Shown here piece after piece: positions 1-5,498 of a DNA stretch of 5,498 nt. Below the pieces are notes generated by a model. The model was not told the origin of the DNA. It worked only from the letters and a program-made list of their open reading frames with translations, and searched no databases. The stretch comes from JACPSX01 sp035288405 [NCBI: bacterium] (GTDB lineage: Bacteria; JACPSX01), in contig DATEAK010000385.1 in the NCBI GenBank assembly GCA_035288405.1, positions 1-5,498 on the forward strand. Reading direction: 5' to 3'. The position numbers were made by a program, and so were the translations under genes. Every line of letters begins with the position of its first letter. The first letter of the stretch is position 1.

Positions 1-266
1 TGTATGTCCGGCGGGGACAGGAGGAGACTCGGGTGAAGCCGCACCGTCTGATCCAGGTGCAACCCAAGGACATTATCGCGAAGCTGAGCAGCGGCGGGGC
101 CGGCGTGGGCAAGCCCGAAGAGCGCGATCCCGAGCTGGTCCGCAAGGATGTACGCAACGGGGTCGTTTCAGTGGAAGCGGCCAGCGAGACTTACAAGGTC
201 GCCGTCAATCCCGATACGTTCGAGATTGACCACGAACAAACGGGAGTTTTGAGAAGCCGAGGGTAA
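1..266 (+). CDS. hyuB: Hydantoinase B / oxoprolinase / acetone carboxylase-type subunit, C-terminal fragment
   Basis: The reading frame is open from the window edge (first full codon at base 3) to TAA at 264-266, so the gene starts upstream and only about 88 C-terminal residues are visible. A GTG at 33 is in frame but lies inside the protein and is not the start. The fragment carries the family's C-terminal signature: a glycine-rich turn (SSGGAGVGKP), then EERDPELV, KDVRNG and VSVEAA followed by a tyrosine. In this family the pattern is usually GGGGYGDP-ERDPE-V-DV-G-VS-EAA-YGV. Family members are cytoplasmic and pair with a HyuA-type ATPase subunit, either to hydrolyse cyclic amides (N-methylhydantoin, oxoproline) with ATP or to carboxylate ketones (acetone, acetophenone carboxylases). 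This short end does not tell which. The downstream binding-protein gene follows after 58 bases, suggesting one operon. Family assignment is fairly sure; substrate is unknown. Confidence 0.82.
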   Translation, partial: YVRRGQEETRVKPHRLIQVQPKDIIAKLSSGGAGVGKPEERDPELVRKDVRNGVVSVEAASETYKVAVNPDTFEIDHEQTGVLRSRG

Positions 267-306
267 TTCCAACTGGGGTAAACCGCTTCATCGCCTGCGA
301 CCAAGC

Positions 307-316
307 AGGAGGGAGG
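307..316 (+). promoter_or_regulatory. Ribosome binding site of the substrate-binding protein gene
   Basis: AGGAGGGAGG ends eight bases before the ATG at 325 and contains a full AGGAGG core, which fixes this start. The first bases of the site (307-309) are also the 3' arm of a small inverted repeat, CCTGC at 294-298 and GCAGG at 305-309 with a six-base loop. The stem could partly cover the site, but five base pairs may be chance, and the second GGAGG (312-316) would remain free. Confidence 0.75.
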
Positions 317-324
317 AATTTCTC

Positions 325-1533
325 ATGGTAAAAACGGGAATGTTCAATTGGAAGTGGCTCTTTGCCACAGTCGCTGTTGTGGCAATGGGAGTGGGGAGCG
401 CGGGGGTAATTTGGGCCCAGAAGCCCCCGATTAAGATCGGGGTGCTCTACTCACTAACAGGGGTGTACTCCTTTCCCTCAAAGCACGGCATTCAGGGAGT
501 TAAACTTGCTTTTGATGAGATCAATAACGAAATTGCCGGCCGGAAGATTGAGTTACTTATCGAAGATGACGCGGCGCCTGACGTTGCTGTCGGTCTCACC
601 AAGGCCCGCAAGCTCGTGGAGCGGGACAAAGTGAACGTCCTCATGGGGATCATCTGGAGCCCCACGGGCGTGGCCGTCGCCAAGTACGCCACCGAGCAGA
701 AAGTGCCGCTGGTGTTGAGTGAAGCTGCCCCCCGGGAGCTTACCCAAGAAAATAGAAGTCCCTTCGTCTTTCGCACTTCCTTTGCCGCCGGCCAGACAAC
801 CTACCCCGGCGGCAAATACTATTGCAGGAATATGAGCTACAAGAAGCTCGTGGTCATTGGTTTCGATAGCGTCTTTGGCCGGCAGCTAGGCGACTACGTG
901 GAGAACGGCTGCAAGGAATCGGGGGGAGCGGTGATCGAGAAGATTTATGCGCCTGTCGGTACCCCGGACTTCGCTCCCTACCTGGCTAAGATCCAGGCGC
1001 TCAATCCCGATGCCGTGTACGCAGTGTGGGCGGGTTCGGCAGCCATTCGCTTCTTGAAGCAGTACAAAGAATACGGCCTGAAGGAAAAGTATCCTCTGCT
1101 AGGCTTCGGATCGCTTTCCAGCGACGAAGTTCTGAAAGAAGCGGGTGACGCAGCCTTGGGAGTCGTCACCGACTATTTCTACTCCGCTTCCTTGGATAAC
1201 CCCGAGAACAAGCGTTTTGTGCAGGAATACACCCGGAAATACGGGGAAGGACCCGCCGTATATTCCGATGGCGGCTACTCCGCGGCCCGGGCGATCCGGG
1301 AAGCCCTTATCGCCATCAACGGTGAGGTGGAAAACCAGGAGAAATTCCTCACTGCTCTGCGGAAAGTGCGCTGGCAGGATCCCCGGGGACCGCTGCGCTT
1401 CGACCCCTACCAACAGTCGATCATCAACGTGTACATCTTAAGGGTCCAAAAAGTGGGCGACCATCTCGGCAATGTGCCGATCGAAACGCTGAAGGATGTG
1501 GAGCAGTACTGGCCCAAGGGGAAGCCTCGCTAG
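325..1533 (+). CDS. Branched-chain amino acid-type (Liv) ABC transporter substrate-binding protein
   Basis: This 402-residue protein is a type I periplasmic binding protein (Peripla_BP_6 class), the extracytoplasmic receptor of a Liv-type ABC importer; the length is normal. Residues 1-31 form a signal peptide: a short N-terminal part with lysines, a hydrophobic core (about 12-30) and a likely cleavage after Ala31 (IWA/Q). The mature protein opens with IKIGVLYSLTGVYS, the usual first beta strand and ligand loop, followed by GVKLAFDEIN (58-67). Later family marks are VVIGFDSVFGRQLGDYVENG (176-195), the PDFAPYLAKIQALNPDAVY region (214-232) and a C-terminal RGPLRFDPYQQ segment (354-364). The mature protein has only two cysteines (167 and 196), in neighbouring predicted helices. 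There is no lipobox. Members of this class bind amino acids, amides, dicarboxylates or aromatic acids; the catabolic neighbours make an aromatic or organic acid more plausible than leucine, but this is inference. No permease or ATPase gene is in the window. Confidence 0.93.
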   Translation: MVKTGMFNWKWLFATVAVVAMGVGSAGVIWAQKPPIKIGVLYSLTGVYSFPSKHGIQGVKLAFDEINNEIAGRKIELLIEDDAAPDVAVGLTKARKLVERDKVNVLMGIIWSPTGVAVAKYATEQKVPLVLSEAAPRELTQENRSPFVFRTSFAAGQTTYPGGKYYCRNMSYKKLVVIGFDSVFGRQLGDYVENGCKESGGAVIEKIYAPVGTPDFAPYLAKIQALNPDAVYAVWAGSAAIRFLKQYKEYGLKEKYPLLGFGSLSSDEVLKEAGDAALGVVTDYFYSASLDNPENKRFVQEYTRKYGEGPAVYSDGGYSAARAIREALIAINGEVENQEKFLTALRKVRWQDPRGPLRFDPYQQSIINVYILRVQKVGDHLGNVPIETLKDVEQYWPKGKPR

Positions 1534-1582
1534 CGCCAAAGCGAATGCTGCTGGATTCGTGATGAGGTTGAGTATTCAACAA

Positions 1583-1588
1583 GGGGAG
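1583..1588 (+). promoter_or_regulatory. Ribosome binding site of the E1 alpha gene
   Basis: GGGGAG lies four bases before the ATG at 1593. The spacing is at the short end, but no competing in-frame start has a better site, and the protein N-terminus from this ATG matches the usual start of E1 alpha subunits. Confidence 0.6.
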
Positions 1589-1592
1589 ACCC

Positions 1593-2594
1593 ATGCCGTT
1601 GGATAAGGATCGTTTGCTGTTTGCCTACCGCCGGATTCTGGAGATCCGCTACCTGGAAGCGTCTCTCTCGGACCTACTGAAAAGAGGCGAGATTCCCGAT
1701 CTTTACCCTTGCTCGGGACAGGAAGCTGTTGCCGTCGGCGTTTGCCTGGCCCTGCGCCCTGACGATCAGATTACTTCCATGTACCGCTGCCTGGGCCATG
1801 TGATTGCCAAGGGAGCGGAGCCGTGGCGGGTTGCCGCAGAGTTCTTCGGGCGCCGGGACGGTTACTGCAAAGGAAAAGGAGGGGCAAAACACGTTTGCAG
1901 TTTTGCCGACGGCATCTACGGAGCAACGAGCATCGTGGCGGCCGGCATTCCTCACGCAGCGGGCGTGGCTCTGGGCAATCAGTATCTCAACACGGGCCAG
2001 GTCGTGGCCTGCTTTTTTGGCGACGGTGCGGCGAACCAGGGGACATTTCACGAAGGACTCAACCTCGCCTCTGTCTGGAAGCTTCCGGTGGTCTTCGTGT
2101 GCGAAAACAACCTCTACGCTTTGGCCACTCCCATCGAGGAGACCACGGCCGTCAAGGATATTGCGGACCGTGCGGCTTCCTACAATATGCCCGGCGTCAT
2201 CGTGGATGGGATGGACGTGGAGGCCGTTTACGACGCCGTTACGGAAGCGGTCAGCCGGGCTCGGGCCGGCGGGGGACCCAGCTTGCTGGAGTGTAAGACG
2301 TACCGGTTCGGAGGCCATTTCGCCGCGGAATTTGCCCTGAAGATTCACTACCGCGAAGATAGTGAGATGGACCAGTGGAGAAAGAGGGACCCGATTTTGC
2401 TCTTGGGAGCAAAACTTGAAAAGGAGTTTGGGTTTACGGAAGAAGCAGCTCAGGCTCTAAGGAACGAGGTACAACAAAAGACCGAGGAGGCGATCGCCCG
2501 GGCCCGAAGCAGTCCAGCTCCGCTCCCCGAGGAAGCCCTTCAAGACCTGTATGCAGATTCGTATGCCAACCTCCCGGAGCAGGAGATCTTTTAA
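1593..2594 (+). CDS. Thiamine-diphosphate-dependent dehydrogenase E1 component, alpha subunit (acetoin/pyruvate type)
   Basis: At 333 residues this is full length for an acetoin/pyruvate E1 alpha subunit, which binds ThDP with the beta subunit and decarboxylates a 2-oxo acid or cleaves acetoin. The ThDP/Mg motif is clear: GDGAANQG at 143-150, then NN at 172-173, giving GDG-X26-NN. Other family blocks are GQEAVAVGV (42-50), KGKGGAKH (93-100), IADRAASYNMPG (190-201), VDGMD (204-208) and GGGPSLLECKTYR (226-238). The wording around the ThDP motif (NQGTFHEGLNLASVWKLPVV) resembles acetoin dehydrogenase AcoA more than mitochondrial-type pyruvate dehydrogenase. Odd points: where AcoA-like proteins have YR/HR-x-HGH this one has YRCLGH (64-69), so Leu67 replaces a conserved His; the IPGFVHLYxGEEA stretch is replaced by IPDLYPCSGQEA (34-45), apparently losing another His; and the GHFEGD loop is GHFAAE (241-246) with about three extra residues after it. 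His242 is kept. The alignment is from memory. The true substrate may therefore differ from acetoin or pyruvate. Confidence 0.92.
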   Translation: MPLDKDRLLFAYRRILEIRYLEASLSDLLKRGEIPDLYPCSGQEAVAVGVCLALRPDDQITSMYRCLGHVIAKGAEPWRVAAEFFGRRDGYCKGKGGAKHVCSFADGIYGATSIVAAGIPHAAGVALGNQYLNTGQVVACFFGDGAANQGTFHEGLNLASVWKLPVVFVCENNLYALATPIEETTAVKDIADRAASYNMPGVIVDGMDVEAVYDAVTEAVSRARAGGGPSLLECKTYRFGGHFAAEFALKIHYREDSEMDQWRKRDPILLLGAKLEKEFGFTEEAAQALRNEVQQKTEEAIARARSSPAPLPEEALQDLYADSYANLPEQEIF

Positions 2595-2596
2595 TG
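2581..2596 (+). promoter_or_regulatory. Internal ribosome binding site and TAATG stop-start overlap joining E1 alpha and beta
   Basis: AGGAGA (2581-2586) lies inside the last codons of the alpha gene, seven bases before the beta ATG at 2594. The alpha stop TAA (2592-2594) shares its last A with that ATG. This arrangement usually means translational coupling, fitting for two subunits made in equal amounts. Confidence 0.8.
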
Positions 2597-3565
2597 CGAG
2601 ACATCAATTACCTCCAGGCAATGAATGAGGCAATTGCCGAGGAGATGATCCGAGACGATCGGGTCATTGTCATTGGAGAAGACGTGCGGGCCGGTGTCTT
2701 TGGAGTCACCGCCGGATTGCTGGAAAAGTTCGGTCCCCGGCGCATCCTCGATACTCCCATTTCCGAGTCGGGATTTTGCGGCGCCGCCATCGGGGCCGCC
2801 ATGCGGGGGTTGCGTCCCGTGGTGAACATGCACCTGGGGAGCTTCCTCTACGTGGCCATGGACCAGATCGTCAACGAGTGCGCCAAGCTCCGCTATATGT
2901 TCGGGGGCCAGGTGAACCTGCCGATTGTTTTCCTGTGCCGCAGCGGTCCTCCCGGGAATAATGCGGCGCAACATTCCGACGCACCATATCCTCTCTTTGC
3001 CAACTCGCCGGGATTGAAGGTGGTTCTCCCCTCCACTTCCTACGATGTGAAAGGGCTTCTCAAGCAGGCGATCCGGGATAACGATCCGGTGATGGTCTTC
3101 GGCAACATCCGCAGCCGAAAGAGTTCTGTTCCGGAAACGGGTGAGGATCTCGTGATTCCCTTTGGCAAGGGAGAAGTGAAGCGGGCCGGAACGGACATCA
3201 CCGTGGTGGCCTTCCTGCACTTGGTGGAGGAAGGCCTATCCGCAGCGGAAGATCTGGAGAGAGAGGGGATCTCGCTGGAGGTGGTGGATCCGCGCACGCT
3301 GGTTCCTCTGGATATGCAGATCATCCTGGAGTCGCTGGCCAAAACGGGTAGGCTGCTGGTGACGGACGACTCCCACCGGACGTGCGGTGCAGCAGCGGAG
3401 ATTGTGGCTCGGGTGGCGGAAAAAGGTTGGAATCTGCTCAAAGCTCCGGTCAAGCGGGTCACGCGCTACGATGTACCCATCCCCTATTATCGCGCCATGG
3501 AGCAGTTTGTTCTCCCCAACCGGGACAAGATCAAACAGGCGGCCCGCAAGCTCATGGGGGTATAA
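2594..3565 (+). CDS. Thiamine-diphosphate-dependent dehydrogenase E1 component, beta subunit (acetoin/pyruvate type)
   Basis: This 323-residue protein is a full-length E1 beta subunit (transketolase pyrimidine-binding domain about 1-175, C-terminal transketolase domain about 195-315) and forms the alpha2beta2 E1 with its neighbour. Visible marks are VIGEDV (26-31), FGVTAGLLEKFGPRRILDTP (36-55) and ISESGF (56-61), where Glu58 matches the glutamate that activates the ThDP aminopyrimidine. Others are YMFGGQ (101-106), AAQHSD (124-129, with the conserved His127), the PGLKVVLPS segment, VVDPRTLVPLD (230-240), and VKRVTRYDVPIPY at the C-terminal side. The FGVTAGLLEKFG and YMFGG wording is close to acetoin dehydrogenase AcoB. 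Unlike most relatives, the strand after GLRPV reads NMHLGSF (78-84), where a glutamate and an F-x-DF pattern are usual, and DDSHRTCGAAAEI (258-270) replaces the common E-x-HRTGG-type wording. No E2 acyltransferase or E3 gene follows; a UbiD gene does. Whether it works with lipoyl E2 encoded elsewhere or alone cannot be seen. Confidence 0.92.
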   Translation: MRDINYLQAMNEAIAEEMIRDDRVIVIGEDVRAGVFGVTAGLLEKFGPRRILDTPISESGFCGAAIGAAMRGLRPVVNMHLGSFLYVAMDQIVNECAKLRYMFGGQVNLPIVFLCRSGPPGNNAAQHSDAPYPLFANSPGLKVVLPSTSYDVKGLLKQAIRDNDPVMVFGNIRSRKSSVPETGEDLVIPFGKGEVKRAGTDITVVAFLHLVEEGLSAAEDLEREGISLEVVDPRTLVPLDMQIILESLAKTGRLLVTDDSHRTCGAAAEIVARVAEKGWNLLKAPVKRVTRYDVPIPYYRAMEQFVLPNRDKIKQAARKLMGV

Positions 3566-3608
3566 TTTCCGAGAGAGCCCGGCTCCGTTTTGACAAGACC
3601 CTATCTGT

Positions 3609-3619
3609 GGAGGAGGAAG
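3609..3619 (+). promoter_or_regulatory. Ribosome binding site of the UbiD-family gene
   Basis: GGAGGAGGAAG contains AGGAGG at 3611-3616, seven bases before the ATG at 3624. It is the strongest site in the window together with that at 307 and fixes the start. Confidence 0.75.
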
Positions 3620-3623
3620 CGTC

Positions 3624-5075
3624 ATGCCGTTTGCGGACATGCGGGAGTTCATCTCTCTTCTGGAAAAGAGGGGAGATCTGCTGCGGATTTCCCAGGAAGT
3701 AAACTGGGATCTGGAAATCGGGGCCTGGCTTCACAAGGCCATTCGCACCAAGAGACAACCCGGCCTCCTGTTTGAAAAGATCAAGGGTTATCCTCAGGGT
3801 TACACCGTGGCGGGGATGCTGGTTCCCAATCCCGTCCGCTGGGCTCTAGCTCTGGATTTTCCCGAGGACATTTCCTGGACAAAGATGATCGAAGGGATTT
3901 ATGAGCGTTGCCGTAAACCCATGGATCCTGTCCTGGTGGGCACGGGCCCTTGCAAAGAAGAGAAGCACACGGGGAGTGACTGTGACTTGTTGGAATTTCC
4001 GGTTCCTCATTACATCGCGCGCGACGGCGGCCGCTACCTGGGCACCTGGCATTGCGTAATCACCAAGGACCCGGATACGGGCGTGCGCAACGTGGGGATG
4101 TACAGGATCATGGTCCACGACCGCAACTCTCTGGGGATTTTCATCTGCCCGGGAGAAAACGCTCTGTTCCACTACGAGAAGTGTAAGGCCTTGGGCAAGC
4201 CCATGCAGGTGGCAATTACACTGGGCCAGGAAGAGGTTCTTCCTCTGAACTCTCTATGGTCCTGGCCTTACGGGATTGACGAGTTTGCCATGGCCGGGGC
4301 TATGCGAAAGGCTCCCGTGGAGTTGGTAAAGTGCGAGACCGTGGATCTGGAAGTTCCTGCCACCGCGGAGATTGTGGTGGAAGGGGAACTATCTCTGACC
4401 GAGCGGCGGCCCGAGGGCCCCTTCGGCGAGTACACGGGTCACATGGGGGGGATGATCAAAGAGGGCCCGGTGATTAAAGTAACTGCCATCACCCATCGCA
4501 AGAACCCGATCTACCGCGCTCAACTCAACGGCCGTCCGCCCTGCGAGTATGTTTCTGGAGTGGGAATCTCCCGAGCGGCCGGGCTCTTCGCAGCCTCCCG
4601 CATTTACGGTCGTCCCGACATCATCGCGGCGTTCGTGCTTCCCAACAGCCCTGAGGAAACGATCGCTGTCTCCATTCACAAGAGCTACGCGGGGCAGGCC
4701 TTCGACGTGGCGAATTTTGTCTTCGAGCACGGTCCCACTCCGATGGTCAAGAACGTGATCGTGTGCGATTCGGACATCGACGTGAGCAACCTGGGAGAAG
4801 TCATCTGGGCCTTCAACTGCCGGGTGAAGCCCAGCCGTGACATCCGCATCATCCCCGGCTGCTGCGACTCCCCGCTGGATACCGCCATTGCCCTGGAGCA
4901 ACGTGGACTTGGGGACCGCATGATCATCGACGCCACTTGGCCCATGGAGCCCGAGGACCACTTCCCTCCCAGACCCCAGTGGGACGGCCAGCGCTATCCG
5001 CAACTAGCTCTGCCGGACGATAAGACACTGGCGCGCATCGAGGATCTTTGGCGGGAACTCAAGCTACCCTCTTAG
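3624..5075 (+). CDS. UbiD-family (prenylated FMN-dependent) decarboxylase
   Basis: This 483-residue protein is full length for the UbiD family, which uses prenylated FMN to remove or add carboxyl groups on aromatic or alpha,beta-unsaturated acids. The N-terminus (MPFADMREFISLLEKRGDLL) matches the usual family start. Cofactor and catalytic marks are present: DGGRYLGTWHCVITKDPDTG (134-153), NVGMYR (156-161) with Arg161, and RPEGPFGEYTGHMGG (262-276) with Glu264 and Glu269. Together these make the E-R-E set described for Fdc1/UbiD (Arg173, Glu277 and Glu282 in fungal Fdc1). CDSDIDVSNLGEVIWAFNCR (381-400) is the usual C-terminal acidic block. The key residues look intact, so the enzyme should be active if a UbiX-type prenyltransferase supplies the cofactor; no ubiX lies in the window. 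True UbiD acts in ubiquinone synthesis, but the catabolic context here (binding protein, E1, Hyu-type subunit) points to degradation of, or CO2 addition to, an aromatic or unsaturated acid. The gene starts 58 bases after E1 beta on the same strand, so it is probably in the same operon. Confidence 0.94.
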   Translation: MPFADMREFISLLEKRGDLLRISQEVNWDLEIGAWLHKAIRTKRQPGLLFEKIKGYPQGYTVAGMLVPNPVRWALALDFPEDISWTKMIEGIYERCRKPMDPVLVGTGPCKEEKHTGSDCDLLEFPVPHYIARDGGRYLGTWHCVITKDPDTGVRNVGMYRIMVHDRNSLGIFICPGENALFHYEKCKALGKPMQVAITLGQEEVLPLNSLWSWPYGIDEFAMAGAMRKAPVELVKCETVDLEVPATAEIVVEGELSLTERRPEGPFGEYTGHMGGMIKEGPVIKVTAITHRKNPIYRAQLNGRPPCEYVSGVGISRAAGLFAASRIYGRPDIIAAFVLPNSPEETIAVSIHKSYAGQAFDVANFVFEHGPTPMVKNVIVCDSDIDVSNLGEVIWAFNCRVKPSRDIRIIPGCCDSPLDTAIALEQRGLGDRMIIDATWPMEPEDHFPPRPQWDGQRYPQLALPDDKTLARIEDLWRELKLPS

Positions 5076-5172: not shown

Positions 5173-5498
5173 TCACGTGGAGGGTAACACCGGTTTGCTT
5201 TGTGCTGACTGCTTGCCCTGGGCGCTCTGACCCGCCGGAAAGACCAGAGACTTGATGACCACCGGTACGGCACCCGACGAGGGGAGCAGGCTGCCTATGT
5301 CGATGAAGTCGAACTCCTGCAGCTCGATGCCGTCGATGGAGATCACCGGGTTGGGGAACTGCATCTCCTGCTTTAGGTGGATGCCCAAGAGACCTCCAAT
5401 ATCGCGATCACACACCAGCACCAGCGGGTTGCCACGGGAAAGAGGGTGCTTTAGGGCATTGACCACACCGTTGCAGACCGAGTCGAGACGGTGGAAGG
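5173..5498 (-). CDS. eutA: EutA-family protein (ethanolamine ammonia-lyase reactivating factor), C-terminal fragment
   Basis: The minus-strand frame is open from the window edge to TGA at 5175-5173, so about 107 C-terminal residues are seen and the start lies to the right. A GTG at 5466 is in frame but internal. Counting from that codon, the fragment reads PLVLVCDRDIGGLLG (14-28), ISIDGIELQEFDFIDIG (42-58) and VPVVIKSLVF (68-77). This matches the EutA C-terminus as I recall it: a PLVLV-x-x-D-x-G block, then IDGI-L-EGD-DIG, then VPVVIKTL-F. EutA is a cytoplasmic ATPase of the actin/Hsp70 fold that exchanges damaged cobalamin out of ethanolamine ammonia-lyase (EutBC). After the family end there is an extra tail of about 20 polar residues with a short internal repeat. 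It converges on the UbiD gene and so belongs to another transcript; eutB/eutC, if present, would lie beyond the window. A related reactivase for another B12 enzyme is the main alternative. Confidence 0.75.
   Translation of the reverse strand, partial: FHRLDSVCNGVVNALKHPLSRGNPLVLVCDRDIGGLLGIHLKQEMQFPNPVISIDGIELQEFDFIDIGSLLPSSGAVPVVIKSLVFPAGQSAQGKQSAQSKPVLPST
5194..5229 (-). repeat. Tandem 18-base imperfect repeat in the tail of the EutA-family gene
   Basis: The minus strand encodes QSAQGK followed directly by QSAQSK: two 18-base units with several silent or near-silent differences. It lies beyond the conserved EutA end and makes a short polar, lysine-rich tail. The DNA units have diverged, so the duplication is either old or coincidental. 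Confidence 0.45.

Follow-up and report, generated by a model that had tools for sequence, protein, structure and literature searches.

Enzymes of the hydantoinase (Hyu) family such as caprolactamase (6yra) and N-methylhydantoinase (7hk5) are built from HyuA and HyuB parts, and to our knowledge neither has a known E1 or UbiD partner. UbiD enzymes use aromatic and heteroaromatic acids as substrates, and one of them converts indole-3-carboxylate to indole (PMC8988006). Among receptors of ABC transporters, five from Rhodopseudomonas palustris bind benzoates or propenoid aromatics (PMC3223731) and CouP, a coumarate receptor, binds coumarate and its kin (PMC3610893). Our literature search, which left most subscription journals outside its coverage, found no description of a UbiD, a hydantoinase and a thiamine diphosphate (ThDP)-dependent E1 in combination. 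Such a combination is analysed here in a 5,498-nucleotide stretch of bacterial DNA (contig DATEAK010000385.1 of assembly GCA_035288405.1), hereafter called the window, in which the end of a HyuB, a Liv-type receptor, both subunits of an E1 and a UbiD are encoded in succession.

Searches made separately with the UbiD, the receptor and the HyuB tail of the window all reach loci in other genomes where Hyu genes stand together with a two-subunit ThDP E1. The pair recurs, and it is the Hyu-E1 pair, not UbiD, that forms the statistically firm core of the set. With a probability of about 0.5, we read the window as belonging to a catabolic operon whose substrate is a single small compound, carboxylated and either (hetero)aromatic or cyclic. 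The membership of all five genes in one pathway, the class of the substrate, the order of the steps and a preference for amide hydrolysis over carboxylation by Hyu are what we infer on top of these observations.

Recurrence of the Hyu-E1 pair

Of two E1_dh searches, one covered twelve genomes picked by their UbiD candidate counts. The resulting sample comprised 49 pyruvate dehydrogenase (PDH)-type E1 alpha genes at 47 loci (L002, described below, included) in 11 genomes of one bacterial family, the PDH type being judged by score and open-frame length from 17 and 82 E1_dh rows, and rows that were weak, fragmentary or like oxoglutarate dehydrogenase, transketolase or DXS being left out. Hyu genes are present at 14 of the 47 loci (L002, L010, L011, L012, L013, L014, L016, L030, L031, L032, L035, L036, L042 and L053), a share that is not descriptive of the family since the genomes were picked for many UbiD candidates. 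The E1 alpha search missed a further locus with an E1 beta gene, G323:C98, which lies outside the 47. In genomes G001 and G002, seven of the ten PDH-type E1 alpha genes have a Hyu gene no more than 222 bases away, where chance would give about 1% per gene by our own rough arithmetic.

UbiD is found in the same run, at most 221 bases from Hyu, at four of the 14 loci (L002, L030, L035 and L053), of which L030 and L035 look orthologous; at L012 a UbiD lies 5 kb away on the other strand. Genes for E2 or E3 were found at none of the 14 Hyu loci vs 16 of the 33 other E1 loci (Fisher 0.0016), a comparison in which related loci are non-independent and truncation of short contigs (L031, 6.8 kb; L032, 5.8 kb) may explain part of the absence. 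In this tally, L029 was scored as an E2 locus though its E2 adjoins a second E1, and a 24-bit E3 match at the edge of L044 was not counted. At L042 (4435-6622), a flavin adenine dinucleotide oxidoreductase gene and an arylmalonate decarboxylase/hydantoin racemase-like gene directly follow the Hyu-E1 pair.

Gene run of the window

Open-frame calling over the whole window gave five consecutive frames on the forward strand (Table 1), spaced by 58, 59, -1 and 58 bases, the single-base overlap of E1 alpha and E1 beta being TAATG. The initial annotation had described five co-directional genes with gaps of 58-59 bases or overlap, and had named a Liv-type receptor, a two-subunit E1 and a UbiD; this layout and, through Pfam and NCBIfam matches, these identities are borne out. 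Its "acetoin-type E1" is a two-subunit ThDP E1 as stated, of which the matches do not establish the acetoin type; its Hyu/acetone-carboxylase subunit is correctly placed in the Hyu family and appears nearer to ATP-dependent amide hydrolases than to acetone carboxylase.

Table 1. Features of the 5,498-nucleotide window
Feature	Position	Strand	Match
HyuB C-terminal 87 aa (hydantoinase/caprolactamase-type beta subunit or domain), edge-cut	3-266	+	NCBIfam caprolactamase beta 3e-12
Liv-type (Peripla_BP_6) ABC receptor, 402 aa, signal-like N-terminus	325-1533	+	Pfam 4e-78
E1 alpha, ThDP-dependent type, 333 aa	1593-2594	+	Pfam E1_dh 2e-82
E1 beta, 323 aa	2594-3565	+	Transket_pyr 1.5e-36, Transketolase_C 4e-34; PRK09212
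UbiD-family decarboxylase, 483 aa	3624-5075	+	Pfam UbiD_N, UbiD, UbiD_C; TIGR00148
EutA-like protein, C-terminus	5173-5496	-	PF06277 1e-18

The first frame is open at the left edge of the window. Purine-rich stretches resembling ribosome-binding sites, read by eye, stand just ahead of the receptor, E1 alpha and UbiD start codons. In a consensus scan, the forward strand showed no promoter-like site and the three gaps showed no terminator-like one, with counts at chance level that carry little weight. Co-transcription of the five genes is possible. The named frames of the window include no LivHMFG, HyuA, E2, E3 or UbiX. Downstream, the EutA-like gene lies convergent to UbiD on the opposite strand, so the five-gene run ends convergently; the window holds no further ethanolamine gene.

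HyuB tail and the Hyu family

The HyuB tail aligns with the last 80 positions of the caprolactamase beta model and more weakly with acetophenone carboxylase delta (2e-7, NCBIfam), and has no Pfam match. Its identity to the HyuA-HyuB fusion is 57% at locus L001 and 59% at locus L002. The tests with the HyuB tail and with the receptor were done on six genomes picked for holding Hyu-E1 loci. Of the 100 matches of the tail in these, 43 score at least 57 bits and the other 57 score under 46 bits, and HyuB copies from E1 loci make up 17 of the 43 and none of the 57 (Fisher 6e-8, the split having been chosen post hoc where scores drop from 57.1 to 45.7 bits and related rows being non-independent). 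The count of 17 becomes 14 without three copies that lie outside the run of the E1, and 18 of 43 if G323:C98 is included. The next-ranked HyuBs, in G276:C36 and G001:C90, have no E1 in the stretches fetched.

In the full-length relatives, the HyuA parts of L001 and L002 score 573-665 bits on caprolactamase alpha vs 318-374 on acetophenone carboxylase gamma, and the nearest solved proteins are N-methylhydantoinase and caprolactamase, with which the HyuA/HyuB architecture is shared; the HyuA scores differ from caprolactamase alpha itself in staying below its equivalog cut-off of 1000. Acetone carboxylase consists of alpha, beta and gamma subunits, the gamma being small. No acetone carboxylase model is among the NCBIfam matches of the window's HyuB gene, which is cut by the left edge, and no gamma subunit was found among the frames scanned in L001 and L002. 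Judged by these matches, the full-length relatives look like ATP-dependent amide hydrolases, and the Hyu piece of the window appears nearer to these than to acetone carboxylase.

Receptor and transport genes

The receptor matches 52 places in the six genomes at E 1e-10. Two of them, in G001:C209 and G323:C98, reach 55-56% identity, the remaining 50 being at 35% or less. Both of these receptors lie directly behind HyuA-HyuB, by 223 bases (C209) and 191 bases (C98), at loci that also hold E1 genes, and HyuB followed by the receptor is the adjacency common to them and the window. The G001:C209 locus starts with HyuB, E1 alpha and E1 beta, passes an oppositely oriented LysR-like gene (assigned by eye) and goes on to HyuA, HyuB and the receptor, with two BPD_transp_2 (Liv) permeases and two ABC ATPases beyond it; its receptor-side Hyu pair begins 2.2 kb from E1 beta. 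The G323:C98 locus is a single run of E1 beta, HyuA, HyuB and receptor, truncated at the end of the contig. Genes for a cytosine DNA methyltransferase and a Vsr endonuclease (L106:7218-8766, reverse strand) are found close to the receptor and transporter genes in G001:C209.

Among solved proteins, 4zpj is nearest to the receptor (243 bits), and 4ey3, 4evs, 4f06 and 4evq, which we take to be R. palustris aromatic-acid binding proteins, score 142-207 bits. The window receptor thereby belongs to the same family as this set and differs from it in having 4zpj as its nearest solved relative.

UbiD and its relatives

The N, middle and C domains of UbiD (PF20695, PF01977 and PF20696) all lie above the Pfam cut-offs (best 1.5e-68), and the protein scores 327.3 on TIGR00148 against a cut-off of 244.85. 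Residues R161, E264 and E269 fall in stretches alignable by eye to the solved members 6h6x and 7ae4, and are presumably the Glu-Arg-Glu catalytic triad of Fdc1. The protein is like the solved UbiD decarboxylases, 7ae4 being a phenolic acid decarboxylase, in its three domains and in triad residues that are apparently in place, but it reaches at most 206 bits to any of them.

A contig scan of a collection of 84,980 species gave two close relatives at 86% and 85% identity; the scan is pattern-based, and distant or patternless relatives can escape it. They lie in locus L001 of G001 and locus L002 of G002 (contig G002:C103), both genomes being Betaproteobacteria assembled from metagenomes. Each of the two UbiD genes adjoins a HyuA-HyuB fusion, and L002 alone also has E1. 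At L002 the order is UbiD, HyuA-HyuB fusion, HyuA, HyuB, E1 alpha and E1 beta, with gaps of 7, 43, 11, 78 and -4, and its E1 subunits are just 31% and 41% identical to those of the window. At L001, UbiD is followed by a fusion of 1288 residues, and no E1 or receptor match was found in its 21 kb. The UbiD and fusion of L001 (6741-16006) stand insertion-like inside housekeeping surroundings, with an RNase R-like gene and a SpoU-type rRNA methylase gene before them and a ribosomal S6 gene after.

Past E1 beta, G002:C103 has a medium-chain dehydrogenase-like gene (assigned by eye), possibly a further enzyme of the pathway, and no recognisable E2-like frame. That gene (L110:1011-2072, reverse strand) and one that follows HyuB in G276:C36 (L108:7259-8320, forward strand; also by eye) are closely similar.

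At E 1e-140, the window UbiD finds no more than the same two relatives among 98 genomes of their family, with at most 16 candidates scored per genome, and just that of G001 among 274 genomes of the class, with fewer candidates scored. A plasmid scan gave four records, all at 35% identity or less. The prenylated flavin cofactor of UbiD comes from UbiX, and UbiX-like genes occur elsewhere in G001 and G002 (L081 and L105). A first look at UbiD candidates gave up to 47 in G322 and 63 in G323.

Lineages of the E1

The E1 alpha carries the GDG...NN ThDP motif from residue 143 and retains the canonical GGH loop in alignment, and E1 beta scores 329.1 on PRK09212 (cut-off 321) with 1um9_B as a solved relative. 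The pair resembles acetoin and pyruvate dehydrogenase E1 (1um9, PRK09212) in being a two-subunit ThDP E1 with the motif in place. It differs from them in having no E2 or E3 within the 5.5-kb window and in an alpha subunit under the NCBIfam equivalog cut-offs (318.5 vs 393.85). At E 1e-90, E1 alpha has two matches, at 48%, in the family of the L001 and L002 genomes. A plasmid scan gave 166 records, all below 60% and the best among the matches listed at 51.5%; a scan of viral contigs with E1 alpha gave no match.

In a tree of 46 E1 alpha rows, filtered by length and score so as to exclude E1s that were fused, overlong, low-scoring or fragmentary, 13 of the 14 Hyu-linked rows fall into one 19-row set (support 100/99) whose members carry RWxG...WPEL or similar motifs in place of the usual YRxxGH loop. 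L014 and the window E1 retain the GGH loop and are placed on the opposite side of the tree, whose branches are long and in which no supported set holds the window. A single origin of the Hyu-linked E1s is unsupported, L014 and the window being outside the 19-row set. Hyu thus has neighbours from more than one E1 lineage, which favours function rather than inheritance as the cause of the pairing, and which also means that the window E1 may still use a lipoyl partner. RWxG-type E1 alphas adjoin Hyu at L002, L010-L013, L016, L030-L032, L035, L036, L042 and L053, and no E2 or E3 was found there.

Proposed pathway and competing explanations

In the pathway that we propose, the Liv-type receptor would capture the compound, with the membrane and ATPase parts of the transporter encoded outside the window, and UbiD with prenylated flavin mononucleotide (prFMN) would take off, or in reverse add, a carboxyl group on the ring. 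A later intermediate would contain a cyclic amide, to be activated and hydrolysed by HyuA and HyuB at the expense of ATP, and the two-subunit ThDP E1 would cleave the resulting 2-oxo acid or acyloin without an adjoining gene for a lipoyl E2. Hyu and E1 would be joined by chemistry, since opening of an amide ring by Hyu can yield a 2-oxo acid, the kind of substrate that an E1 handles. The initial annotation had proposed one shared pathway and had taken conservation of gene order as its test. The gene set does recur elsewhere, in partial support, with Hyu-E1 rather than UbiD as its firm core, while the order does not.

Several observations weigh against a catabolic operon of this kind. The five-gene order of the window is absent from every other locus examined. 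An orthologue of the receptor is present in two of the six Hyu-E1-bearing genomes and was not found in G002, G322, G276 or G277; the best receptor match of UbiD-bearing G002 is at 31%, and a UbiD relative and a receptor orthologue occur together in G001 only, on different contigs. At several of the other Hyu-E1 loci the receptors are of the TctC type, and the transporter genes of L014 are of the NMT1 and DctM types, differences which imply that the transporter is exchangeable. We know of no ligand for 4zpj. The window E1 groups among canonical E1s and is no orthologue of the Hyu-linked clade. Within the family, its best match (48%, L009) has no Hyu on its contig, and the two plasmid relatives inspected of the 166 (49.5% and 51.5%) are each followed by E2. 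UbiD lies directly beside Hyu for two of the 65 UbiD matches of G001 and G002, with two more one gene off, where about 0.8 direct neighbours are expected by our own rough arithmetic; the UbiD-Hyu linkage by itself is weak, and as the core of the set it was abandoned.

The readings set out below and the proposed operon are not mutually exclusive, and our confidences in them overlap. Although unlikely, an explanation to be taken seriously is modular shuffling with no common pathway, in which a host very rich in UbiD, Hyu, receptor and E1 paralogues acquires runs of them through chance or the drift of mobile catabolic genes. The supply of such paralogues is large, with 30 UbiD-family and 21 Hydantoinase_B matches in G001 (3.6 Mb) and 35 and 22 in G002 (4.7 Mb), and the weak UbiD-Hyu adjacency and the varying gene orders among the clusters fit it; however, searches with the window receptor, HyuB and UbiD each reach Hyu-E1 or UbiD-Hyu loci, and the Hyu-E1 adjacency is far over the rough chance estimate.

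Somewhat less probable again, in our judgement, is an ordinary 2-oxo acid or acetoin dehydrogenase E1 with its E2 and E3 elsewhere in the genome and a merely incidental Hyu/UbiD neighbourhood. The canonical loop and ThDP motif, the place on the canonical side of the tree and the E2 adjoining both inspected plasmid relatives all speak for it, but the tight spacing with receptor and UbiD does not, nor do the Hyu-linked E1s, which represent two or more lineages (the 19-row clade and L014) and have no E2 or E3 in the stretches examined.

A more specific form of the proposed pathway, which we regard as quite improbable, would make Hyu and E1 a dedicated chemical couple, HyuAB opening an isatin-like cyclic 2-oxo amide and a lipoyl-independent E1 decarboxylating the 2-oxo acid. 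The cyclic amide would arise after UbiD decarboxylates a heteroaromatic acid, e.g. indole-3-carboxylate. In the clade that holds most Hyu-linked E1s, replacement of the loop His of classical E1 alpha would look as if the E2 partner had been given up, and the window E1, which kept this His, would have been recruited independently to this role. A molybdenum-hydroxylase search over the 14 Hyu-E1 loci gave one match (L053) to the references used, which leaves the isatin idea without a gene for the oxidation step.

Equally improbable is a carboxylating pathway, in which a Hyu enzyme like acetone or acetophenone carboxylase acts on a ketone, UbiD carboxylates a ring and E1 cleaves the product: both the Hyu/acetone carboxylase and UbiD families include carboxylases and the HyuB tail has its weak acetophenone carboxylase delta match, but the HyuA scores, the nearest solved proteins and the lack of an acetone carboxylase gamma among the frames scanned in L001 and L002 point to amide hydrolysis.

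Significance

Overall, the catabolic operon as we read it would bring three enzyme families, dependent on prFMN (UbiD), ThDP (E1) and ATP (Hyu), together with a dedicated importer in a recurring gene set whose order is shuffled. Such a set would assign functions within the large UbiD and Hyu expansions of the metagenomic Betaproteobacteria considered here. It also points to an E1 lineage seemingly able to work without an adjoining lipoyl E2.

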